Below, piece after piece: positions 12,908-24,069 of a stretch of DNA of 64,000 nt. Position numbers and translations under genes: made by a program. The stretch is from NCBI GenBank assembly GCA_903867885.1, contig CAIPTD010000145.1, forward strand, positions 28,738 to 92,737, read 5' to 3'. The notes beneath the pieces are model-generated. The model made no database searches, was not told where the DNA came from, and saw only the letters and a list, made by a program, of their open reading frames with translations. Numbering within the stretch: the first letter of the stretch is position 1; each line of letters opens with the position of its first letter. The stretch is from an uncultured Ferrovum sp. (GTDB lineage Bacteria; Pseudomonadota; Gammaproteobacteria; Burkholderiales; Ferrovaceae).

Positions 12908-13879
12908 CTAAGGAGCCTCGGCATGGAGCTCTTCAGTTTGGCGCGTAAAATTAAAGGTACGTGTAATGTCAATCACATCCGCTTGCCTATGCATCTTGGG
13001 GGTAAAGGGACCAAACGGAGCAGACATATAAACAATATTCACGGCCACTTGGTCCAGCGCAGAATCACCTGAACTGTTGTTCACAACTATTTTTTCGACA
13101 GTGCCATCGGATTTAACAGAGGCGGTGACTCTTACTTTTCCGTATACGGGTTCACCATTTCTAGGAGGCGGATAATTCAGGGTACCCACACGCTCAATCT
13201 TCGTTCGATACGCATCCTCATATTGAGCAAATACATAAGCCACGGCCCGCCCGCCTAACTCTTTACGTCGTGGCCTTTTTTGGTATGCATCAAACCGTTT
13301 TGAAATTTCGGCGGCCTCACGCATCAAGGCCTGACCATTTTGGTTGGGATCGATACCCGCCAGCGTTTTGCTTACTTCAGCATCATGGTCAGGTACTAAA
13401 GGGTGATACTGATACTCTTGAGGATTGCTTCGCTTTGAATTGATCTGGGCTTTTTGACTGTCTAACATTTGGCTGGCTTTGATTTGCGTCATAAGCTCCA
13501 GTGCTTCGCGCTCTAAGCGCGCAACCTCCTTTTCTGCTTCAGATGCTTGTCGGGCTAAATCATCATTCATGGCAGCAAGCGGGCTAGACAAGGTGTGATC
13601 CTCATCGGTGTTGCCCCCTCCATTTAAATCATTTTGGGCGCGTAAAGTAGCGTGACTCGGTTCCTCACTTGATTTGCTATTCACCAACACGACTTCCATC
13701 TGCTCCATGTCGTTCATCTTGGGCATGAATTGTTCAAAAGCAAAGCCAAATAAAATGGCTACGTGAACAAGGGCTGAAAGAAGGAGTGCATTGCGCAAAC
13801 TTGACCACGCATTGACCTCCCAACCCTTTTGACGGGCAAGCACAAGCGCACTAGAGGAGCCCAATTGCTCTGCAATCAT
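12908..13879 (-). CDS. TonB/TolA-like energy transducer
   Basis: I choose the ATG at 13879, which forms an ATGA overlap with the upstream ribonuclease stop, over the longer 13918 start. The 323-residue protein has a single N-terminal membrane anchor (NALLLSALVHVAILFGFAF). A charged, coiled-coil-prone segment follows (EAEKEVARLEREALELMTQI), then a periplasmic stretch and a TonB-type C-terminal domain (YGKVRVTASVKSDGTVEKIVVNNSSGDSALD). It would couple proton-motive force to an outer-membrane process. It lacks an obvious long Pro-Lys repeat and has no ExbB/ExbD neighbours, so its receptor is unknown. Confidence 0.82.
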   Translation of the reverse strand: MIAEQLGSSSALVLARQKGWEVNAWSSLRNALLLSALVHVAILFGFAFEQFMPKMNDMEQMEVVLVNSKSSEEPSHATLRAQNDLNGGGNTDEDHTLSSPLAAMNDDLARQASEAEKEVARLEREALELMTQIKASQMLDSQKAQINSKRSNPQEYQYHPLVPDHDAEVSKTLAGIDPNQNGQALMREAAEISKRFDAYQKRPRRKELGGRAVAYVFAQYEDAYRTKIERVGTLNYPPPRNGEPVYGKVRVTASVKSDGTVEKIVVNNSSGDSALDQVAVNIVYMSAPFGPFTPKMHRQADVIDITRTFNFTRQTEELHAEAP

Positions 13880-15714
13880 GCAAGCGCTCGGTAATGACAA
13901 GTCACCGTGAGCTCCCATAGGTCGGGGTGGCCTAGGTCCACATTGGCTAGGGTGCCGGGAGCGAGTTCGGATGCACCGTGCACTTTCACGATCAGCGGTG
14001 TACCCCTTACTCGGCCCGACCCCTCTCTTAGCATGGTCACGGTTGTCTGCTTCACTTCATTTTGAATCAACCAGCGCAAGGACCAGAAACGTTCCATAGT
14101 GCGCTGAAATTCATTGTAGCTATCGTAGGCAGTTTCGAATGATCGGGCCACCCCTGTTAGCTCACCACCATCGGCCGGCCAAACTGGATCACGCCCTTGC
14201 ACATGAGCTAATAACTGCCATTGGTTGATGAGATCTACATAACGCCGCAAAGGGGACGATGACCATGCATACTGGTTCACACCTAGACCTTGATGAGGAA
14301 GCGCCTCTACCCCTAGGCCAGTTTTCCCATTTACTTGGCTGCGGTAAATGCCCGACATTCCTTTTTCCTTGATCAAACCGCCCCAACTTTGATTCACATG
14401 AATCATCATTTCTGAAACAATTCTATCAATCGGGTTGCCACGCACTCGGGGCACAATTTCTACGCGATGATTCTCCACATAAAAGTTGTAATCGAGTGAG
14501 GGGGGCGAGCGCTCAATATGGCCTCGGGCTAAAGCGCGGCTATTGGCAAGTCGCCATAAAAATGTAAGCTCCTTGGCAAAGGGTATGCCTTCAACCACTC
14601 CTGCAAGGAGGTTTTCTTCTGAGAGTGCTGCTTCGATATTGCCATGCCTTAAATTGGCCGCAATAAAAACTTGTTCCGCACACGTCTCTTCACTCAGAAT
14701 CGTGCAATCCTCTCCATTCACGGTGAGGTATAGCGAGAGCGCAGGGCACCAGCGTCTTTCTGCCAGAGTGAAATGCTCAACTACCGAGTCAGGCAACATG
14801 GTGAATTTATCGCCTGGCATATATACCGTGGACATTCGTCCTCGGGCAAAAGCATCGATCTCAGATCCTGGCGCGATTCCTAATGCAGGCAAGGCGATAT
14901 GAATACCGATTCGCCAATTTCCATCTGGCAAGCCGACCACGCTAAAAGCATCATCAATTTCGGTGGTGGTGACATCATCAATGCTAAAGGCTTCGGCAGA
15001 CGCTTTGGGCAGAACAGAAGCATCAAAGTCCAATATAAAATCTAGATCGGGCTCACCAAACCATTCAAAGATAAAACGCTCCCGATGAAAAGCCAAGGGC
15101 GACTCAAATACCCCGCACTCTGCCAGGAGTTTGGGGAGGGTCATGCCTCGCTCTGTGGCAGAAGTTTCTAGGGCTTTTACTTCAGCCAAATTACGATCGG
15201 GCCGATATAAGAATTCCCGCCATCGCGGCAACCAAGCTTCAGGGAAATGTCCTTGCGATAAAGCCTCTACCCACTCGGTACGTTGTGCTTCTTCGCGTTT
15301 CTTGCGCTCAATGCCTGCTTTTGCGGCGCGTAAATTATCTGGGGTAGCCGGTTTATAACGGCCCTTACCTTTTTTATAGAAGAACATGGGCGAAGCATGC
15401 AGACTCAAAGCTACGGCTACCGACTCTACTGCACTAGGTGCATGCCCAAAATAGTCTTTTGCCAGTTGCTCAAAACCAAAATCGATATCTTGAGGGCAGC
15501 ATTCCCATAGAAAATCGACATCGATTTCTTGTGTCAACCGCTCTGCCTCCCCCATCAAATCCCCCGCGGAAGGGCGTTCAAAGCGCAACAAAACTTGGGC
15601 AGCTTTAATTTTGCCGCGTTTACCGTGGGGAGACTCCACTTGAAGGGCAGCCCCTTGTTCAGCCAACACAATCGAAGCCTTCAGGCCACCGTCTTCTTCA
15701 TGAAACACATTCAT
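13876..15714 (-). CDS. RNB-domain ribonuclease
   Basis: The 612-residue protein carries an RNase II/R catalytic domain. FSIDDVTTTEIDDAFSV holds the clustered aspartates that bind Mg, and HIALPALGIAPGSEIDAFARGR with MLPDSVVEHFTLAE follow the family pattern. The N-terminal third matches the short RNB group seen in betaproteobacteria next to tonB rather than classical RNase R; I see no clear S1 extension with a basic tail. It sits between mpl (ATGA overlap) and the TonB-like gene (ATGA overlap) in one transcription unit. The RNA substrate is not known. Confidence 0.88.
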   Translation of the reverse strand: MNVFHEEDGGLKASIVLAEQGAALQVESPHGKRGKIKAAQVLLRFERPSAGDLMGEAERLTQEIDVDFLWECCPQDIDFGFEQLAKDYFGHAPSAVESVAVALSLHASPMFFYKKGKGRYKPATPDNLRAAKAGIERKKREEAQRTEWVEALSQGHFPEAWLPRWREFLYRPDRNLAEVKALETSATERGMTLPKLLAECGVFESPLAFHRERFIFEWFGEPDLDFILDFDASVLPKASAEAFSIDDVTTTEIDDAFSVVGLPDGNWRIGIHIALPALGIAPGSEIDAFARGRMSTVYMPGDKFTMLPDSVVEHFTLAERRWCPALSLYLTVNGEDCTILSEETCAEQVFIAANLRHGNIEAALSEENLLAGVVEGIPFAKELTFLWRLANSRALARGHIERSPPSLDYNFYVENHRVEIVPRVRGNPIDRIVSEMMIHVNQSWGGLIKEKGMSGIYRSQVNGKTGLGVEALPHQGLGVNQYAWSSSPLRRYVDLINQWQLLAHVQGRDPVWPADGGELTGVARSFETAYDSYNEFQRTMERFWSLRWLIQNEVKQTTVTMLREGSGRVRGTPLIVKVHGASELAPGTLANVDLGHPDLWELTVTCHYRALA

Positions 15715-17087
15715 ACACCCGACTCCAGTGCTTTCGCCAACATGCCATGAACGCCACCAAAACCACCGTTACTCATCACCACAATCCGATCGCCTGCTTG
15801 CGCCTCACTACAAATTGCTTGCACCAATACATCCAATTCCGCGAAGCACGACGCTTTTTTTCCTAATGGGGATAAGGCTTGTGCTGGATCCCAACCTAGT
15901 CCTTTGGTATAGCAAAAAGTCTTATCCGCTGACTGCAAACTTTGGGCGAGGGCATTCGCCCATACGCCCATTTTCATGGTGTTAGAACGCGGCTCGATCA
16001 CCGCCAATATTCTGCCCTCAGGCGCACGCGAATGCAGGCCCTGAAGGGTTGTTTCGATGGCGGTAGGGTGATGCGCGAAGTCGTCATAGATGGTGATGCC
16101 CCGAACTGTAGCGATGAGTTCCATGCGGCGACGTACCCCCTTGAACCGCGATAAGGCATCGAGCGCCACCTGAGGCGGCACGCCCGCGTGAGCGGCGGCA
16201 GCAATGGCGGCGGCGGCATTAGCACGGTTATGCTCGCCTTGCTGGGCCCATACCGTCTCGCCAGCATAACTCTCTTTAATAGTGAGCACTAACTCTGAGT
16301 CTTTTTTTCCGGCGCTCGCCCACCAGCCAGTCTTCGCATCAAGGTATTCCACCGGCGTCCAACAACCACGGGCCAACACCCGCTGTAGCGCCTCGTTGGC
16401 CTTCGGCACCACCAGTCGACCGGTCTGCGGAACCGTTCTAACCAAATGATGAAACTGGGTTTCGATCGCAGCCAAATCAGCAAAAATATCGGCGTGATCA
16501 AATTCCAAATTATTCAGAATGGCGACCGAAGGACGGTAATGCACAAACTTTGAACGCTTATCAAAAAATGCGGTGTCGTATTCATCGGCCTCAATCACAA
16601 AGGGGGGACGACGGCCATTCAATCCATCACCAAATCCAGGCAGCGCAGCCGATACTCCAAAGTCTTTGGGTACGCCCCCAATCAAGAAACCGGGGGCCAG
16701 CCCTGCCGATTCAAAAATCCAGGCAAGCATGCTGGTCGTGGTGGTTTTACCGTGGGTGCCCGCTACGGCATACACCTCACAACCCCGAAGAATATGCTCA
16801 GCCAGCCATTGGGGGCCCGATATATAGGGTAGCCCTGCATCCAAAATAGCTTCCATCAGTGGGTTGCCGCGGGATACCACATTGCCGACAACAAACAAGT
16901 CCGGCTTAAGTTTTAGCTGATCGGTATCAAAACCTTCATGCAATTCAATACCGATCTGTTCCAGCTGGGTGCTCATAGGGGGATACACCTGCGCATCGCA
17001 ACCTGTCACCTGATGACCAGCCGCTTGGGCGAGACTTGCTAGGCCGCCCATAAAAGTCCCACAAATTCCGAGGATATGAATGTGCAT
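15711..17087 (-). CDS. mpl: UDP-N-acetylmuramate:L-Ala-gamma-D-Glu-meso-DAP ligase
   Basis: Mpl attaches recycled murein tripeptide to UDP-MurNAc, returning peptides from wall turnover to peptidoglycan synthesis. The 458-residue protein has N-terminal HILGICGTFMGGLA, the ATP loop AGTHGKTTTTSM near residue 112, EADEYDTAFFDKRSKF near 167 (the Mpl-specific form), EHNRANAAAAIAAA near 280 and YDDFAHHPTAI near 330. Size and motifs separate it from MurC. It is the first gene of the mpl-RNB-tonB-like unit and lies 3 nt from the stop of the upstream metallo-beta-lactamase-fold gene. Confidence 0.96.
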   Translation of the reverse strand: MHIHILGICGTFMGGLASLAQAAGHQVTGCDAQVYPPMSTQLEQIGIELHEGFDTDQLKLKPDLFVVGNVVSRGNPLMEAILDAGLPYISGPQWLAEHILRGCEVYAVAGTHGKTTTTSMLAWIFESAGLAPGFLIGGVPKDFGVSAALPGFGDGLNGRRPPFVIEADEYDTAFFDKRSKFVHYRPSVAILNNLEFDHADIFADLAAIETQFHHLVRTVPQTGRLVVPKANEALQRVLARGCWTPVEYLDAKTGWWASAGKKDSELVLTIKESYAGETVWAQQGEHNRANAAAAIAAAAHAGVPPQVALDALSRFKGVRRRMELIATVRGITIYDDFAHHPTAIETTLQGLHSRAPEGRILAVIEPRSNTMKMGVWANALAQSLQSADKTFCYTKGLGWDPAQALSPLGKKASCFAELDVLVQAICSEAQAGDRIVVMSNGGFGGVHGMLAKALESGV

Positions 17088-17090
17088 GAA

Positions 17091-18158
17091 TTATTTGCTC
17101 ATGAGGTCTTCGGACTCCAACTGGAGGTACCGATAAAAAAGATTATGGCCATGGTTGGGAGAATAATCATCCCAATCCATGTAAGGAAATACACTCGGCT
17201 GTTGGGTCACTTCTTCAAGGGGAAGACGACGCTCATACAAGCCTCGAGCCTGATGATCGAGGTCACGCAAATACCCTTGCAGTTGGCTAATAGCATCCTG
17301 AATACTGATGAAAGACTGTCGATCCTGCGGGGTCTTTAATTGCATAGCGCGAGAAGAGAGTGCTATAGGCCCATAGGCCGGAACAACCGCATAAGCCTTC
17401 GCCAAGCCATCAAAAGTAAGCGCTTGCTCCCACGCAAGTGGCGAGGTGTCTTGCACCGCAGGGACGCGATGCACGGAGAGCAAAGCTCCAGAAAAAACTA
17501 CCCCTGTTGCCTCATCTCGAATCACCAGATTACCGGGAACCGTGCCCTGAGGGCCTTCTACCACCGAAATCTTACGTCCGGCTAGATTGAATGAGCCCGA
17601 TGGAAACGCATAAGCCGTTGGTAAAACTAAGCGTGTGCCCTTCATGCGATCTTCGCCCAAAACTTGGATCAGCGTCTCTAAGCAGTGATCGCAACGTTGG
17701 GCCATCAGTCGAGGGGTGTGCACCTGCGACCAAATGGGTACGCCTAAATCTTTGAATACTCCATCACCAAATAAGACTTCCTGCGCGGGATGGCTTATCA
17801 GCACATATTGTAATGGCTTATTGGTGACTGTTTTGATGGCATGGATCAGCTCTTGCGCCCGTGCCGCGCTGGAACCTGTATCAATGATCACGACCCCAGT
17901 CTTGCCTACTAAAAACCCCAGATTACCAACCCTACCTAAATTGTTTGCATTCGGAGCGGCGCCATCGCCAGGTAATACATACACACCACGAGCAATTTTT
18001 TGGGCGTGTAACTTGTCGTTATTCGTAGCATGGACAGGGTTTGAGCCAAGGCTCAATAAGGCCGCCAAAAGTGCTAGGCGTCCTGTAATAAAGTGCGTGC
18101 TCCTGAACTGAATAACATGTCGCAAGAGCAATGATGAAGAAGTAAAGGGAAACTGCAT
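17091..18158 (-). CDS. Exported metallo-beta-lactamase-fold protein lacking metal ligands
   Basis: The 355-residue protein has an N-terminal export segment (RLALLAALLSLGSNPVHA). The rest resembles the MBL-fold quinoprotein-relay or SoxH-like hydrolases found beside PQQ dehydrogenases: GVYVLPGDG, GNLGFLVGKTGVVIIDTG and a strand ending in LISH. The zinc motif HxHxDH reads HPAQEV (123-128). The later Asp of SGD is Ala (VVFSGALLS), and the usual GHG reads AYG (VVPAYGP). A CDHC motif is present. Metal-dependent hydrolysis therefore looks unlikely, and a binding or chaperone role is possible. It is the last gene of the xox cluster, followed 3 nt later by mpl. Confidence 0.75.
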   Translation of the reverse strand: MQFPFTSSSLLLRHVIQFRSTHFITGRLALLAALLSLGSNPVHATNNDKLHAQKIARGVYVLPGDGAAPNANNLGRVGNLGFLVGKTGVVIIDTGSSAARAQELIHAIKTVTNKPLQYVLISHPAQEVLFGDGVFKDLGVPIWSQVHTPRLMAQRCDHCLETLIQVLGEDRMKGTRLVLPTAYAFPSGSFNLAGRKISVVEGPQGTVPGNLVIRDEATGVVFSGALLSVHRVPAVQDTSPLAWEQALTFDGLAKAYAVVPAYGPIALSSRAMQLKTPQDRQSFISIQDAISQLQGYLRDLDHQARGLYERRLPLEEVTQQPSVFPYMDWDDYSPNHGHNLFYRYLQLESEDLMSK

Positions 18159-18191
18159 TGGGCTTTTCCGTAAGGCCGCCCAGTATATCTC

Positions 18192-18222
18192 TGATCATGC
18201 CCTCATACAGGGGGCATGATCA
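18192..18222 (-). terminator. Perfect 11-bp inverted repeat between two xox-cluster genes
   Basis: TGATCATGCCC and GGGCATGATCA pair perfectly around a 9-nt loop in the 89-nt gap after the small Cys-containing gene. No U-tract follows on the minus strand. It may be a weak terminator, an mRNA-stabilising hairpin or an operator rather than a classical terminator. Confidence 0.5.
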
Positions 18223-18247
18223 TCAATGAATCAAATCTTAAAACCCC

Positions 18248-18610
18248 TTAAAGGAAGCAGGCGCCTTTCGCTTCAGCCGTAGCCTTTTTAAACTCGGCAT
18301 TTAAACGCTGCCCCATAGGCGTATCGCGAACCACGTTACCGCGCTCACCGGAGATGGTGAAGGCTTTTGCGGCGGTGGTCATATCTACAAACTGATCGTA
18401 GGTATAGTTTTTGGCTAGTTGATCCACTAGGCACGAACACTTTTGTACCATCTCAAAGCGCCCCTTATTGGGGTAATCGTTCATACACTCTTCCACGAAC
18501 TGCACACGTTCTGCGGTGGGGTAGTCATTACCTTCGTGAGCAACTGCATTCAGGGTAAACATACCAAAAGACGCGTGTAGCGCAAGGCAGAGTAAGGTTG
18601 TTTTTTTCAT
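18248..18610 (-). CDS. Small exported four-cysteine protein of the xox cluster
   Basis: I do not recognise a named family. The 120-residue product has a signal peptide (TLLCLALHASFGMF, likely cleaved after NAVA). The mature part of about 96 residues holds four cysteines: C42, C58, C60 (a CSC motif) and C118. That would allow two disulfides or a metal or heme-handling site, but no CxxCH is present. The start is 1 nt after the stop of the preceding 252-residue protein, so the two are clearly co-transcribed. The position in the cluster suggests a periplasmic accessory role in quinoprotein electron transfer; this is inference only. Confidence 0.7.
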   Translation of the reverse strand: MKKTTLLCLALHASFGMFTLNAVAHEGNDYPTAERVQFVEECMNDYPNKGRFEMVQKCSCLVDQLAKNYTYDQFVDMTTAAKAFTISGERGNVVRDTPMGQRLNAEFKKATAEAKGACFL

Positions 18611-19369
18611 TTATTTATTCTCCGAGAGGATGAGGTTTTCTTCGATCATGACTTTACCGGTGTTACTGCCCTCACGCATCACAGTTTTTAGGCTGACTAC
18701 ATTACCGGGGACCTGATCTGACACAATGAAGGAGTATGTTTTGTTAGCGAACCGTGTATAGCGCGCTTTAGCTGGATCATCTTTGAATGGATCAATGACG
18801 ATTTCTTCCGCTTTGATGTCTTTTCCATTCCATTTTATTGTGACAGGCTTGATTTCTTTGGTATCAACCAACGCTAAGCGAATGAGTTTGCGATAGTAGT
18901 TGGGACTACCACCGGTGATGCGTTTCATCTCAAGTACATCCCGTTCTAAAAAATACATGATCACAGGATTGCCGTGTGCGTTGTCTACTGGGGGCATTTC
19001 TTTTTTGTGCTCACCCGTCATGAACTCCGTTGATACTTTTCTAGCACCGTCTGCTTTGGAATCGGGGGCACTCACCAGAAGCGTTACTTTGTCTTCAAAT
19101 CCTGCCTCATAGGGGCCGGATTTGGAGAATTTGTAGTTGAGCACCGCGTCGCGATTGGGAAGATTTTTGAGTTGCTCACTCATGAATAAACGTATTTCAG
19201 CAGGCGACAGGGGTTGTTCAGGTGCTTTGGCTGCAGCGCCAGCTACATTGCCTTGCGGCGCATCGGCTGCTAATACCGTGAAAGCCGAGCCCAACAATGC
19301 CAGCAATAGTGTGACTGTAGGTGCAAAACGAGGCTTAGGTGTTGCGATATTTTTTGAGGATACAAACAT
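18611..19369 (-). CDS. Uncharacterised exported protein of the xox cluster
   Basis: The 252-residue protein starts with an N-terminal hydrophobic export signal (VTLLLALLGSAFTVLAA), then an Ala/Gln/Pro-rich linker. The mature domain looks beta-rich and loosely recalls LolA-type or lipoprotein-sorting folds (NPVIMYFLERDVLEMKRI, YYRKLIRLALVD, TIKWNGKDIKAEEIVIDPF). I see no cysteine, heme or metal motif. It lies between the protease-TPR gene and the four-cysteine gene in the same orientation with tiny gaps. I do not assign a function; a periplasmic carrier or assembly factor is possible. Confidence 0.7.
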   Translation of the reverse strand: MFVSSKNIATPKPRFAPTVTLLLALLGSAFTVLAADAPQGNVAGAAAKAPEQPLSPAEIRLFMSEQLKNLPNRDAVLNYKFSKSGPYEAGFEDKVTLLVSAPDSKADGARKVSTEFMTGEHKKEMPPVDNAHGNPVIMYFLERDVLEMKRITGGSPNYYRKLIRLALVDTKEIKPVTIKWNGKDIKAEEIVIDPFKDDPAKARYTRFANKTYSFIVSDQVPGNVVSLKTVMREGSNTGKVMIEENLILSENK

Positions 19370-19405
19370 ATTATCTTGGCTCCGAAATAGAGGGATGAAT
19401 GAGTT

Positions 19406-20443
19406 TTATTTTTGTGGTTTTGCTTCAGTGAGTAGAGATAATTTTGAATCCAACTGAAGCGCAAGATCGGGATCGATTACTTCTAATTTCTGGCGTATGC
19501 TTACCAATTCCTCATCATGACCGCTGGATTGAGCTGCGAGCGCTAACTCATACCAAGCCTCTCCTAATTGTGGCTCGAGGTCTGTTGCTTTTTGAAAAGG
19601 TGGAATTGAATCTTGCGTTGCATGCATTCCGGCATAAGCTTTCCCTAAAGTCAGCCATGCAACTGCAGAACCTGGATCTTGATGTGTCCAATCATTTGCC
19701 AACATTTGCAACTTGGACCAGTCTTTAACTAATTCTAAAAATGCTGCTTGCAGAAATAAAGGCTGTTTTTCATAAGGGGCTTGCCAAACAGGAACTTCGG
19801 CATTGAGTAAGGTAGGCTCTACAAAACCATCCGATGAGCCTAGCCACGTTTTAAAATGATCAACCGGCATGGAGTAATAGCAGTCGCCGGTTCCGCGTAG
19901 CCTAAAAGTTAAAATCCCCACTAACTTTCCTTCAGCGTCAAACAAGCCTCCGCCACTTGATCCTGAATTGAAAGCGGTTGAAGATTTAATGACGGGTGCA
20001 CCAGCATCTGGATACAAACCACGCACCACACCATCAGCAAACTGCAATTCGTAACCGCCCGTGAAGCCCATGGCGATCACACGGTCACCAACGTGAAGCG
20101 TGCTCGATGACCCAACCTCTGCTGGAACGCCCTCCAGTTCAGGCACCTCCAACATGCACAAATCATTGTGTATATCGTGACGTTGTTTTCTAACTGTCAG
20201 TCGCAACCCACTATACAGAACACGAATGAGTGGTGCAGGCCCCGTGACATGGCAACTGGTCACCACGCGCCCGGGAGCTACGATCACACCTGTACCCATG
20301 TTGTAATGATTATCGGGCGCTAAGGCTTCAATCCGAACAGTGGTCATGGCCATGCGCATGAATAAAGCACGGTCAAACTCCACGGCCAACACTGTTTGAG
20401 CGCTAAAAAGCGCAAAGCACGCAGACAGTAAAAAGCGTCTCAT
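19406..20443 (-). CDS. Exported trypsin-like serine protease with C-terminal TPR-like region
   Basis: The 345-residue protein has a signal peptide (FLLSACFALFSAQTVLA). A chymotrypsin-fold protease follows with an intact triad: His65 in VVTSCHVTG, Asp94 in HNDLCMLEV and Ser163 in FNSGSSGGGLFD. From about residue 235 the sequence turns helical, with TPR-like repeats (AWLTLGKAYAGMHATQDSIPPFQKATDLEP, split here: LGKAYAGMHATQDSIPPF then KATDLEPQLGEAWYELALAA). There is no PDZ domain, so it is not DegP/DegQ. AGGAG lies 9 nt before the ATG. Within the xox cluster it may process or guard a periplasmic partner; the substrate is unknown. Confidence 0.8.
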   Translation of the reverse strand: MRRFLLSACFALFSAQTVLAVEFDRALFMRMAMTTVRIEALAPDNHYNMGTGVIVAPGRVVTSCHVTGPAPLIRVLYSGLRLTVRKQRHDIHNDLCMLEVPELEGVPAEVGSSSTLHVGDRVIAMGFTGGYELQFADGVVRGLYPDAGAPVIKSSTAFNSGSSGGGLFDAEGKLVGILTFRLRGTGDCYYSMPVDHFKTWLGSSDGFVEPTLLNAEVPVWQAPYEKQPLFLQAAFLELVKDWSKLQMLANDWTHQDPGSAVAWLTLGKAYAGMHATQDSIPPFQKATDLEPQLGEAWYELALAAQSSGHDEELVSIRQKLEVIDPDLALQLDSKLSLLTEAKPQK

Positions 20444-20505
20444 CTTAATAAGCTCCTAGTCATGCACCTGAATCTCAATGGTAAGAAAAAGGTGTATATC
20501 TCCGG

Positions 20506-21393
20506 CTAAGGAATGAGCACACCTTTTTCATCCAGCAAGGGGATACCAAAATCCTTGAGGATTGCGGTGATCTCAGTTCTGTTTTGGTCAACCAAGGATT
20601 GGAGAGTGGCTTTCCATTTTGGTTCACCGTAACGCAAACCCATTCCCATTGAAAAGGTAGTGGGGTGCTGATCATCCACAGGAGTTAAGGGAAGCAATAC
20701 TAGGTTTTGTTTGGCTACGCGCTTAGCATAGTAGCCCGCTACGGGGCCCCATACTAGCGCCGCATCGACCTCGCCCTTCAGTAGATGCTCAACAATTTCA
20801 CCTGCATGGAAATCAGGACGTGCATCCATCAAACGATATGGAACGGCCTGATCTTCTAGACCATGCTTAACCAACCATTGACTTGCACTGGAGTCCCGGT
20901 CATAGACGGCAATTTTGAGTTTACTGAGTTGTTCTTTAGGAAGATCCAGCAACGCTTCACTGGTCTTTAGTCCTGCTAGAGGGCTATCGGGTCTGACTAC
21001 GAGCATTTCACCGGAGCGGAAATAGGCTTTGGTTACCGCCATCTGATCACTATTTAATGGTGCTGCTATCACGACATCACAACGAAAATGCGTATCGCCG
21101 GGTAATTTGTATTTGAGGGTATTCCGCACAAATCCTAATCGTTGCGGGGTGGAGTAATACTGCAACGGCACATCGAGCTTTTTCGCTAATAACTCAGCGA
21201 TTTTATTTTCAAATCCCTCTCCTTTTAGGTTGGAGTTGGGAAGATTGTTAGGGTCCTGGCAAACCCGAAGTGCATCAGGCTTTTCATCTTGCGGTGCCGG
21301 TTCAGGTTCGGCTGCACCGACAGATACAGCACAGAATAACAATGATGCAGTTAGGGTTGAAATCACCCCTTGGGGAAGCCAGGTGTTGTTCAT
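20506..21393 (-). CDS. xoxJ: XoxJ-type periplasmic binding protein
   Basis: XoxJ/MxaJ proteins are periplasmic solute-binding folds encoded with methanol dehydrogenases; XoxJ has been proposed to help activate XoxF. The 295-residue protein has a signal peptide and the family opening ALRVCQDPNNLPNSN. It then has GFENKIAELLAKKLDVPL, and the FRCDVVIAAP and GPVAGYYAKR motifs of the quinoprotein-associated SBP family. It starts 15 nt after the xoxG stop. There is no permease or ATPase nearby, which supports a non-transport role. Confidence 0.9.
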   Translation of the reverse strand: MNNTWLPQGVISTLTASLLFCAVSVGAAEPEPAPQDEKPDALRVCQDPNNLPNSNLKGEGFENKIAELLAKKLDVPLQYYSTPQRLGFVRNTLKYKLPGDTHFRCDVVIAAPLNSDQMAVTKAYFRSGEMLVVRPDSPLAGLKTSEALLDLPKEQLSKLKIAVYDRDSSASQWLVKHGLEDQAVPYRLMDARPDFHAGEIVEHLLKGEVDAALVWGPVAGYYAKRVAKQNLVLLPLTPVDDQHPTTFSMGMGLRYGEPKWKATLQSLVDQNRTEITAILKDFGIPLLDEKGVLIP

Positions 21394-21408
21394 ACTTTCT
21401 CTTTAGAA

Positions 21409-21810
21409 TTATTGTGCGATCATTTCAGGCTTGGTGCGGGTAATCGCGCCATCTGAGCGACCTTTTAGGTAAGCGTATAAGCTATCGATATTATCCATCA
21501 CACGCTTATTTGCATTCCAAGCCGGCATACCGCGCTCAAGACGACCCGCAGTAATCGTTGTAACGAATTCGTCCTTGCTCAATACCTGCAAGCTTTTAAT
21601 CAGTGAGGGGCCAACCAGACCTTCTTGGTTGGGGCCGTGGCATGCTGCGCAATTTGCTTCGCGCCATACACGGAAGCCTTCCATCGTTTTTGCATCTACT
21701 TTCACACCGTCCACAACGGTATAGGGTTTGGCATCATCTGCCTGTACAACTTGAGCGCCGACGAGCGCTGAGGTGATCAAGGCAGCTGAGATAATCGTAG
21801 TGCGGAACAT
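21409..21810 (-). CDS. xoxG: Cytochrome c of the XoxF system (XoxG)
   Basis: The 133-residue protein has a signal peptide (ISAALITSALVGAQVVQA) and one heme-c site, C54-A-A-C57-H58. A likely distal Met lies in RGMPAWN. XoxG is the direct electron acceptor of XoxF in lanthanide-dependent methanol oxidation, passing electrons from PQQH2 to the terminal oxidase chain. Its place directly after xoxF and before xoxJ fits the standard xoxFGJ order. A terminator-like hairpin in the 183-nt gap from xoxF suggests it is expressed below XoxF. Confidence 0.9.
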   Translation of the reverse strand: MFRTTIISAALITSALVGAQVVQADDAKPYTVVDGVKVDAKTMEGFRVWREANCAACHGPNQEGLVGPSLIKSLQVLSKDEFVTTITAGRLERGMPAWNANKRVMDNIDSLYAYLKGRSDGAITRTKPEMIAQ

Positions 21811-21895
21811 TATAGTTCTCCTAATGTAGGTAAGAATTTGAGCGGGCCGATGCGTCGTCGGTTCCCTAATAGAATGAAATTAATCTGAGGCGGAT

Positions 21896-21937
21896 AAAAA
21901 CAGATGGCACCCCGGTTTAACGCCGGGATGCCATCTG
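21896..21937 (-). terminator. Rho-independent terminator between xoxF and xoxG
   Basis: On the minus strand CAGATGGCATCCCGG and CCGGGGTGCCATCTG form a 15-position stem with one mismatch and a 7-nt loop, followed by TTTTTA. It should stop much of the xoxF transcription before xoxG. Confidence 0.88.
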
Positions 21938-21957
21938 AAGTTTACTGCTATTCACGT

Positions 21958-21979
21958 TCGGCGCATTATTCTGCGCCGA
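21958..21979 (-). other. Second hairpin at the xoxF 3' end
   Basis: TCGGCGCA and TGCGCCGA pair perfectly (8 bp, 6-nt loop) 14 nt after the xoxF stop and before the U-tract terminator. It has no U-tract of its own and may protect the xoxF mRNA 3' end. Confidence 0.6.
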
Positions 21980-21993
21980 GCATCTTGGCTAAA

Positions 21994-23814
21994 TTACTTG
22001 CCAGGAATCGCGAACACGGTCAAGGAACCACCGAGTTCTGTGAACTTGTTCAGTTCTTTGTAGCCACCCACTGCGCCTAGGCCGTCGGTGTCTTTCTCAA
22101 GACCAGCTGCCATGCCGATACCGGCCCAGCCACCAATTCCTGAGTACACGCCAACAAACTGCTTGCCTTTGTGCTCGTAGGTGAACACGTTGCCGATGAT
22201 GCCGGAAGGAGTCTTGAACTTCCAGAGCTCTTTACCGGTCTTGGCGTCAACTGCTTTGATGTAGCCTTCTAGGGTACCGTAGAATGCCAGGCCACCTTTG
22301 GTGGTCAAAGCACCGGACCATACCGAGAACTTCTCGGGCTTGGACCAAACGATCTTACCTGTGCCGCCATCCCAAGCAATGAAGTTACCCATTGTGCCGT
22401 CTTTCTGGTCTTTGCTAGCCGAAGGAGCGGGGAACATCGACAGGGTTGCACCAACATAAGGTGATCCTGCGGTGTACTCAACTTTGAAAGGCTCGTAGTC
22501 CATGCAAACGTGGTTGGTAGGAACGTAGAACAACTTGGTGTCTGGGCTGAAAGATGCGGGCTGCTCATCTTTGGAACCTAGAGCTGCTGGGCAGATACCT
22601 TTGGAGTTAACGTCAGGACCATTCTTAGCGGTGGAGTACTTCGCCACAACTTGGGGACGGCCGGTCTTCATGTCAACGTGGGTAGCCCAGTTCACAGCAG
22701 GATCATACTTCTCTGCAACCAAGAGAGCACCGGTGGTGCGGTCTAGGGTGTAGCCGAAACCGTTACGGTCAAAGTGAGACAATGCTTTGGTCTCTTTGCC
22801 ATGAACAGGAATATCAGCCAAGATCATTTCGTTGATGCCGTCAAAATCCCACTCATCGTAGGGGGTCATCTGGTAAACCCAGTTGACTTTACCGGTATCA
22901 ACATCGCGAGACCAGATAGACATAGACCACTTGTTGTCGCCAGGACGCTGAGCAGGGTTCCAGGTTGAGGGGTTACCTGTACCGTAGAACATTGCGTTCA
23001 AGCTAGGATCGTAAGAATACCAACCCCAGGTTGTGCCGCCACCGATCTTCCACTGGTCGCCTTTCCAGGTCTTCAAGGAAGAGTCTTTTCCGACTGGAGC
23101 CATTTTGCCATCGGTCCAGGTCATGGTCTTCTCGGGATCCATCAACATTTCTTCGTCAGGACCAACGCTGTAGCCTTTCCATGCTTGCTTACCGGTGTTG
23201 ATGTCGTAAGCAGCCATGAAGCCACGAACGCCCCACTCACCGCCAGAAATACCGGTGAATACTTTGTTCTTGAATACGTGAGGTGCGGATGAATTTACAG
23301 CGCCCAACTTAGGATCACCGTTCTTCACAGACCAAACAACCTTACCGGACTTAGCATCCAAAGCAACGAGGTTGGTATCAGCTTGTTGCAAGAATACTTT
23401 GCCTTCTGCATACGCTAAACCACGGTTAACCGTGTCGCAGCACATTTGGGGCACAACTGCTGGGTCTTGCTTAGGCTCATACTTCCAAACGATTTGCAGG
23501 GTGTTCAAGTCATAGGCCCAAACTTTATTGGGGAAGGGGCTATGGATGTACATCATGTCGCCGATAACCAGGGGTGAACCCTCGTGGCCACGCAGCACGC
23601 CAGTGGAGAAGGTCCAAGCAACTTGGAGCTGGTTCACGTTAGCGGTGGTAACTTGGTTTAGTGAGCTGTAACGATGGTTTGCGAAATCTCCAGCCTGGGC
23701 AGCCCAGTTCTTGGAATCTTTGATTTTAGCAGCCAAGTCGTCGTTGGCTTGTGAAGCAACGGGGGCAACCAGAGCGGCGCCAACCAATAGCATCGTGATG
23801 CGATTCAAATTCAT
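21994..23814 (-). CDS. xoxF: Lanthanide-dependent PQQ methanol dehydrogenase
   Basis: XoxF oxidises methanol (often formaldehyde too) in the periplasm with PQQ and a rare-earth ion. I place the start at 23814 rather than 23880: AGGAGGT sits 3 nt before this ATG and the signal peptide then reads naturally ([16 protein letters not shown]). The 606-residue precursor has the adjacent cysteines C125-C126 (PQMCCDTVN) over PQQ and repeated propeller motifs. It also has EWDFDGINE, with D323 as catalytic Asp and D325 as the extra Asp that marks lanthanide enzymes; MxaF has Ala there. No MxaI subunit gene is nearby. Confidence 0.95.
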
Positions 23815-24069
23815 ACAACCTCCTAGTGTGAATTTCAAGCCGACACCAGGCCTATCCTGGTATACGGCAACCAGCAACATAAACGTCGTTGCAGCAGCGT
23901 CTTAAGCACCCATCCGATTTCTGTTCTTATTTGACTGCTTGTGGTGTCGGATGTCGGCATTTGTTACTGGGTCGATTGCCTGATCAATTCCTGAAGTTAT
24001 TTTTACTTTTGGATTGATCCTAAATCTTTGCTTAGTCCACCTTACAGAGGAGACAGCAGACCCTTAACC
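23815..24069 (-). other. Long structured 5' leader of xoxF
   Basis: If transcription starts about 7 nt after the -10 box, the xoxF mRNA has a leader of about 255 nt. It contains two perfect 7-bp inverted repeats, CATCCGA/TCGGATG (23911-23917 with 23947-23953) and GATCAAT/ATTGATC (23982-23988 with 24013-24019). The AGGAGGT ribosome-binding site lies at 23818-23824. No gene is apparent. I cannot match it to a known riboswitch class. Confidence 0.45.

Follow-up and report, generated by a model that had tools for sequence, protein, structure and literature searches.

A zinc-site-less, CxxC-bearing metallo-beta-lactamase-fold protein in a XoxF operon: a candidate third member of the quinoprotein relay

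A gene in our window (the whole stretch of 64,000 nucleotides analysed here, from an uncultured Ferrovum sp.) raises the question of what a metallo-beta-lactamase (MBL)-fold protein does once its zinc site is gone. The gene closes a methanol-oxidation block that encodes a XoxF-type PQQ dehydrogenase, a c-type cytochrome, a XoxJ-like protein, a trypsin/TPR protein and two further proteins of 252 and 120 aa (Table 1). A review of the ped cluster describes a consistent link between SoxYZ-like, SoxH-like and rhodanese proteins and those PQQ dehydrogenases whose active site has adjacent cysteines, and it suggests that these relay proteins form disulfides, stabilise the cofactor or shield PQQ from sulfur species (PMC12997753). 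An initial annotation, made from the letters of the DNA, took the gene for an MBL-fold relay protein that had lost its zinc ligands and was nevertheless kept by selection.

Table 1. Coordinates of the CxxC MBL-fold protein, its altered sites and its operon partners in the window
Feature	Position	Strand	Basis
RCxxC MBL-fold protein, zinc-site-less relative of SoxH_rel_PQQ_1/2	17091-18158	(-)	355 aa; ORF, profiles, AF2, Foldseek
Hydrophobic N-terminal export-type segment, about residues 22-45 (...SNPVHA)	18024-18095	(-)	Sequence; helix 22-38 in model
Former HxHxDH, now HPAQEV, residues 123-128 (H116 kept, H118 to A, D120 to E, H121 to V)	17775-17792	(-)	Alignment
RCDHC, residues 155-159, family-specific Cys pair in helix 148-167	17682-17696	(-)	Alignments; helix from AF2 model
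H196 position (fourth His), now Thr206	17541-17543	(-)	Alignment
D221 position (SGD Asp), now Ala225	17484-17486	(-)	Alignment
H263 position (GHG His), now Tyr262	17373-17375	(-)	Alignment
Perfect 11-bp hairpin TGATCATGCCC...GGGCATGATCA between the 120-aa and CxxC MBL genes	18192-18222	(-)	Sequence
120-aa exported protein, four invariant Cys (C..CxC..C; EC...KCSC...C), operon partner	18248-18610	(-)	Alignment
252-aa exported protein without Cys, operon partner, unnamed family	18611-19369	(-)	AF2 pLDDT 83.8
Trypsin-like (Trypsin_2) + TPR protein, operon partner	19406-20443	(-)	Domain profile
XoxJ/MoxJ-like periplasmic binding protein	20506-21393	(-)	TIGR03871, 248.8 bits (cut-off 212)
c-type cytochrome	21409-21810	(-)	Profiles
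XoxF-type PQQ dehydrogenase, adjacent Cys-Cys (QMCCD), DFD lanthanide-type Asp pair	21994-23880	(-)	TIGR03075, 735 bits; motifs

An MBL fold outside the two named relay families

The reading frame is intact, as initially annotated, with 355 uninterrupted codons, and a PF00753 match of 33.7 bits (cut-off 22.7) places the product in the MBL-fold superfamily. Structure prediction, which had been suggested as a check, shows the fold to be retained: the AlphaFold2 model, built from a 39-row alignment, has a pLDDT of 90.0 and a pTM of 0.84, and its top Foldseek matches are all MBL folds, namely 8d2z from Burkholderia cenocepacia (E 2.6e-17, TM 0.76 on target), chlorothalonil dehalogenase, SdsA1 and CphA. 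The export signal that the initial annotation saw as kept is found as the N-terminal hydrophobic segment, and the C-terminal core is kept. The likeness to 8d2z, CphA, NDM-1 and class B metallo-beta-lactamases in general is one of fold only; the window protein is without their metal ligands, and there is no reason to expect beta-lactam hydrolysis.

The closest named families are TIGR04559 (SoxH_rel_PQQ_2, “quinoprotein relay system zinc metallohydrolase 2”) and TIGR04558 (SoxH_rel_PQQ_1, “quinoprotein relay system zinc metallohydrolase 1”). Against TIGR04559, alignment is full-length (model positions 2-281 of 283) and takes in the C-terminal W...N...LE block, but the score of 136.4 bits lies below the cut-off of 280. 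TIGR04558, with the same fold and genomic company, gives a similar score of 133.4 bits against a cut-off of 300. Relatives of the window protein behave in the same way, with 107-221 bits for 10 of them against TIGR04559 and 125-234 bits against TIGR04558. By their cut-offs, then, the protein is outside both named relay families, and we rate it as a third, zinc-less, CxxC branch among quinoprotein-relay MBL proteins. We found no description of a zinc-less MBL or MBL-CxxC family in the literature searched.

Loss of the zinc ligands and gain of a cysteine pair

In alignment with canonical relatives, the seven metal-ligand columns of the window protein read H123, A125, E127, V128, T206, A225 and Y262, that is, H-A-E-V-T-A-Y as against HHDHHDH. 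The HPAQEV motif and the replacements of the SGD Asp and the GHG His had all been read correctly in the initial annotation. Its wider statement that every recognisable zinc ligand is lost holds for five of the seven positions; H116 stays and D120 has become a conservative Glu. The protein thus lacks the combination of HxHxDH and remaining ligands that marks an active MBL metallo-hydrolase.

To place this loss, we compared relatives drawn from 150 related genomes and from extra phylum and order draws. They sort into two main classes: proteins that keep HHDHHDH, and proteins with an incomplete ligand set plus a C-x2-C pair at window residues 156 and 159. We compiled 51 of the latter (26 from a first sample and 25 from an independent later draw used as a test, the Azoarcus and Caballeronia plasmid matches included) and 59 canonical relatives (44 in the tree described below and 15 further). 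The pair is present in 51/51 zinc-site-less relatives, including every one of the 25 drawn later, versus 0/59 relatives bearing zinc ligands. The suggestion that the CDHC motif (residues 156-159; 17682-17693, minus strand) might be a new site is therefore supported. None of the 51 has an intact ligand set. H116 is retained in 45, H118 in 8, D120 in 4 (with Glu in 41), H196 in 8, D221 in 8 and H263 in 14, and H121 is absent from all; where replaced, D221 is mostly Gly or Ala and H196 mostly Ser or Ala. A subgroup of 8 retains the three His of the first zinc site (Zn1), and the second zinc site is dismantled in all 51. Homologues at the same locus in four related genomes (G002, G003, G008 and G047) share the loss, none of them keeping HxHxDH.

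The frequency of His at the H116 position and of Glu at the D120 position, together with the three-His subgroup and the four invariant Cys (including a CxC) of the neighbouring 120-aa protein, could mean that the CxxC pair is part of a replacement site for copper, zinc or iron, completed by His123 and Glu127 or through a dimer, and that the protein, loaded with metal anew, acts as a carrier or chaperone. We consider this unlikely, if worth keeping in mind, given that only two Cys per chain are conserved. The CxxC also persists in six members without a His at the H116 position, so a site of His, Glu and two Cys is not general, and as a rule for the subfamily the His123-Glu127-Cys2 site is weakened.

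A single origin best describes the history of the CxxC class. In an IQ-TREE tree of 71 proteins, from which the ligand and Cys columns had been removed beforehand, a single branch separates the CxxC proteins from the rest. It has an ultrafast bootstrap of 91 and an SH-aLRT of 88 and recurs in 92% of bootstrap trees, and the change in zinc ligands and the appearance of the Cys pair coincide on it. The tree is rooted at its midpoint only; we infer that the direction was one of ligand loss because zinc ligands are near-universal in the wider superfamily. The ligand loss of the window protein is shared with its relatives and is of single origin, rather than local decay. Purifying selection acts on what remains, that is, on fold, signal and core: the dN/dS is 0.14 against the nearest relative (G004, 93% identical), and three downstream genes give 0.105, 0.073 and 0.075 in the same comparison. 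With catalytic residues lost and purifying selection in place, the protein would qualify as a pseudoenzyme on sequence grounds, and the initial view of a selected pseudo-hydrolase gains support from this dN/dS, the shared single-origin loss and the retained fold. Ordinary decay of a redundant copy, the redundancy being provided by a canonical paralogue on contig C81 of the same genome, is scarcely credible for a form that is common to dozens of genomes and named isolates, with intact frames, this dN/dS and an invariant new motif, and we rejected a pseudogene.

The comparison with G004 has a feature of its own. Between its contigs C94, C111 and C28 and window positions 12908-23880, the XoxF, 252-aa and 120-aa proteins are 100% identical, and dS then climbs from 0.26 in the CxxC MBL gene to 0.49 in mpl, 0.84 in rnb and 1.8 in a TonB-like gene. 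A recombination tract may account for this gradient, as may a MAG bin of mixed content.

The window protein has no cysteines other than Cys156 and Cys159. The columns specific to the subfamily are these two (100%), E127, M152, G88, G209 and Y332; R155 and M152 are conserved at about 92%, and the pair is mostly RCxxC, among proteins mostly 26-37% identical to that of the window. Such conservation bears on the view that the protein is a structural pseudoenzyme, whose MBL body docks the carrier, XoxF or the cytochrome and whose Cys pair merely staples a helix after zinc loss. The coincidence of ligand loss and Cys gain on one branch fits this view, as does the conservation of fold-core residues across the subfamily while pocket residues drift. 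We nevertheless find it rather improbable: Cys invariance in 51/51 and the near-invariance of R155 and M152 at such low identity exceed what is usual for stapling, and the CxxC is found even in the subgroup of eight with three His ligands retained. A c-type heme site (CxxCH) was considered and rejected, with Leu following the pair in the window protein and no His there in any relative listed.

Where the pair lies in the fold can be approached through the NDM enzymes. In pairwise alignment, R155 matches Glu152 of NDM-1, a residue reported to lie at the edge of the active site and to contact Asp223 and a substrate carboxylate (PMC10493327), and the Cys pair is for this reason probably near the rim of the former active-site groove, a placement that rests on pairwise NDM alignment rather than on superposition. 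The model puts the pair in the middle of a helix, unlike the pairs of thioredoxins at a helix start, which makes its redox activity uncertain. The likeness to thioredoxin and Dsb-type proteins, a CxxC in an exported protein in a possible enzyme-maturation setting, is a putative one of working only; the folds are different.

The protein is also set apart from the named families by these features. It differs from TIGR04559 in the loss of HHDHHDH, the gain of CxxC and its place on a separate side of the tree. True TIGR04558 members are without CxxC, and most have HxHxDH. That the CxxC proteins are simply TIGR04558 members misnamed “zinc metallohydrolase 1” is ruled out by their sub-cut-off scores and by the missing CxxC of the true members.

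Operon structure and genomic company

The gene had been described as tightly placed in its operon. This is so downstream, where 3 nt separate it from mpl, but not upstream, where 89 nt with the 11-bp hairpin lie between it and the 120-aa gene. RNA folding of the 50-nt stretch around the hairpin gives -21.9 kcal/mol, and the hairpin is present at locus L034 as well. No T-run follows it, so it may serve in RNA processing or as an operator. A second stem, strong and terminator-like (21901-21937, minus strand; 15 pairs, 10 of them GC, then TTTTT), lies in the gap between xoxF and the cytochrome gene and is possibly an attenuator that would make xoxF the most abundant transcript.

In XoxF, the extra Asp of DFD is a reported lanthanide ligand, and the Cys-Cys disulfide lies over PQQ (PMC8546591). 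The trypsin-like domain, fused to TPR, has apparently intact catalytic residues (CHVTG, DLCML, GSSGGG). The 252-aa protein has no Pfam or NCBIfam match, and its model weakly resembles the half-barrels of LprG, LolA and MucB (TM about 0.3); its place in the operon gave the idea of a Cys-less SoxYZ carrier, which we do not claim, given this resemblance and the lack of a SoxYZ profile match. For the 120-aa protein there is no Pfam match and no significant NCBIfam match, and it occurs in 24/150 related genomes, mostly alongside the CxxC MBL.

G002, G003, G008 and G047 have this block as well, in the same or almost the same form and again with the CxxC protein last; G008 is without the trypsin/TPR gene, and the XoxF gene of G002 falls past the end of the contig. 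Azoarcus sp. KH32C has the order XoxF, cytochrome c, J, 252-aa, 120-aa, zinc MBL, SoxYZ-like carrier and CxxC MBL (WP_015451909.1, annotated merely as “MBL fold metallo-hydrolase”), and Caballeronia sp. M1242 has the same order, with the 120-aa gene not detected in its operon. G070 carries the CxxC gene in divergent orientation to the zinc paralogue with its SoxYZ-like carrier. The window operon has neither carrier nor zinc paralogue locally; in its own genome both are found on contig C81, as a canonical pair (zinc MBL, 322.8 bits; carrier, 277.6 bits) adjoining formylmethanofuran:tetrahydromethanopterin C1 genes.

Co-occurrence points to the same partners. The CxxC protein is present in 25 of the 150 related genomes. 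In Fisher tests that ignore relatedness, with counts uncorrected for phylogeny, a SoxYZ-like carrier above cut-off is found in 24/25 genomes with the CxxC gene versus 14/125 without, a close XoxF in 18/25 versus 5/125, the 120-aa protein in 19/25 versus 5/125 and the 252-aa protein in 14/25 versus 4/125; several of the genomes counted as without have the gene at contig ends (G081) or are possibly incomplete (G001 and G103). A PQQ dehydrogenase occurs in all 25. The seven without a close XoxF each have another PQQ dehydrogenase over cut-off, in one case (G097) directly adjacent. The CxxC protein thus shares with TIGR04559 its linkage to a PQQ dehydrogenase and a SoxYZ-like carrier, and the TIGR04559 gene is often its neighbour.

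These data separate two parts of the initial suggestion that the protein binds PQQ, a quinoprotein or a lanthanide. Gene order and co-occurrence favour a functional tie between the protein and a quinoprotein; nothing found supports PQQ or lanthanide binding. Gene order in the XoxF operon would also suit direct binding of PQQ, a lanthanide or a quinoprotein in the emptied pocket, for instance by a factor that inserts the XoxF cofactor. This is very unlikely in our judgement, since the replacements at D221 and H196 supply no lanthanide-type acidic cluster, genomes that lack the XoxF subclade have the protein too, and its occurrence follows that of the SoxYZ-like carrier no less closely.

A proposed place in the quinoprotein relay

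Our preferred reading, held with confidence a little short of even, is that the CxxC proteins are a single-origin, exported MBL subfamily that joins the quinoprotein relay as its third, non-hydrolytic member, with the CxxC exchanging thiol/disulfide or sulfane sulfur. As to the chemistry, we infer thiol-disulfide or sulfane-sulfur exchange with a partner that docks in the former groove. The relay would consist of a SoxYZ-like carrier, a SoxH-like zinc hydrolase and the CxxC MBL, serving PQQ alcohol dehydrogenases. Both MBL paralogues might share a groove shape that accepts the arm of the carrier; the zinc paralogue would hydrolyse, and the CxxC paralogue would reset the arm or relay sulfur through C156 and C159. 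The likeliest partner of the pair would be the arm Cys of the carrier, within a GGC(S/T)AP motif that all five aligned SoxYZ-like carriers keep; a second choice might be the adjacent-Cys disulfide over PQQ in XoxF. It is through the carrier and its GGC arm that the system resembles SoxH/SoxYZ sulfur oxidation, and unlike that system the window locus has no thiosulfate-oxidation context.

More tentatively, we propose that a zinc hydrolase was converted once into a CxxC thiol- or persulfide-exchange protein, and that the two MBL paralogues alternate on the arm Cys of the SoxYZ-like carrier, keeping the Cys-Cys disulfide or the PQQ of lanthanide-type methanol dehydrogenases working. For the SoxYZ-like and SoxH-like genes that accompany PQQ alcohol dehydrogenases, the review lists only possibilities (PMC12997753). 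A conserved, zinc-less CxxC paralogue encoded in the same operon speaks for thiol chemistry, for which C156 and C159 offer a two-residue test. If true, this would clearly exemplify the re-use of a hydrolase scaffold once its metal was lost, in a family that databases name metallo-hydrolase although the canonical metal site is missing.

Two further alterations of the zinc motif were seen among the relatives. An MBL protein at L031:1381-2340 reads GQHRHDH at the ligand columns, having lost HxHxDH and kept the other three ligands, and has no CxxC; it falls outside both main classes. In L113, L114 and L115, TIGR04558 members of one family and also without CxxC, NLHPDY replaces HxHxDH, a second and separate zinc-motif alteration among relay proteins.
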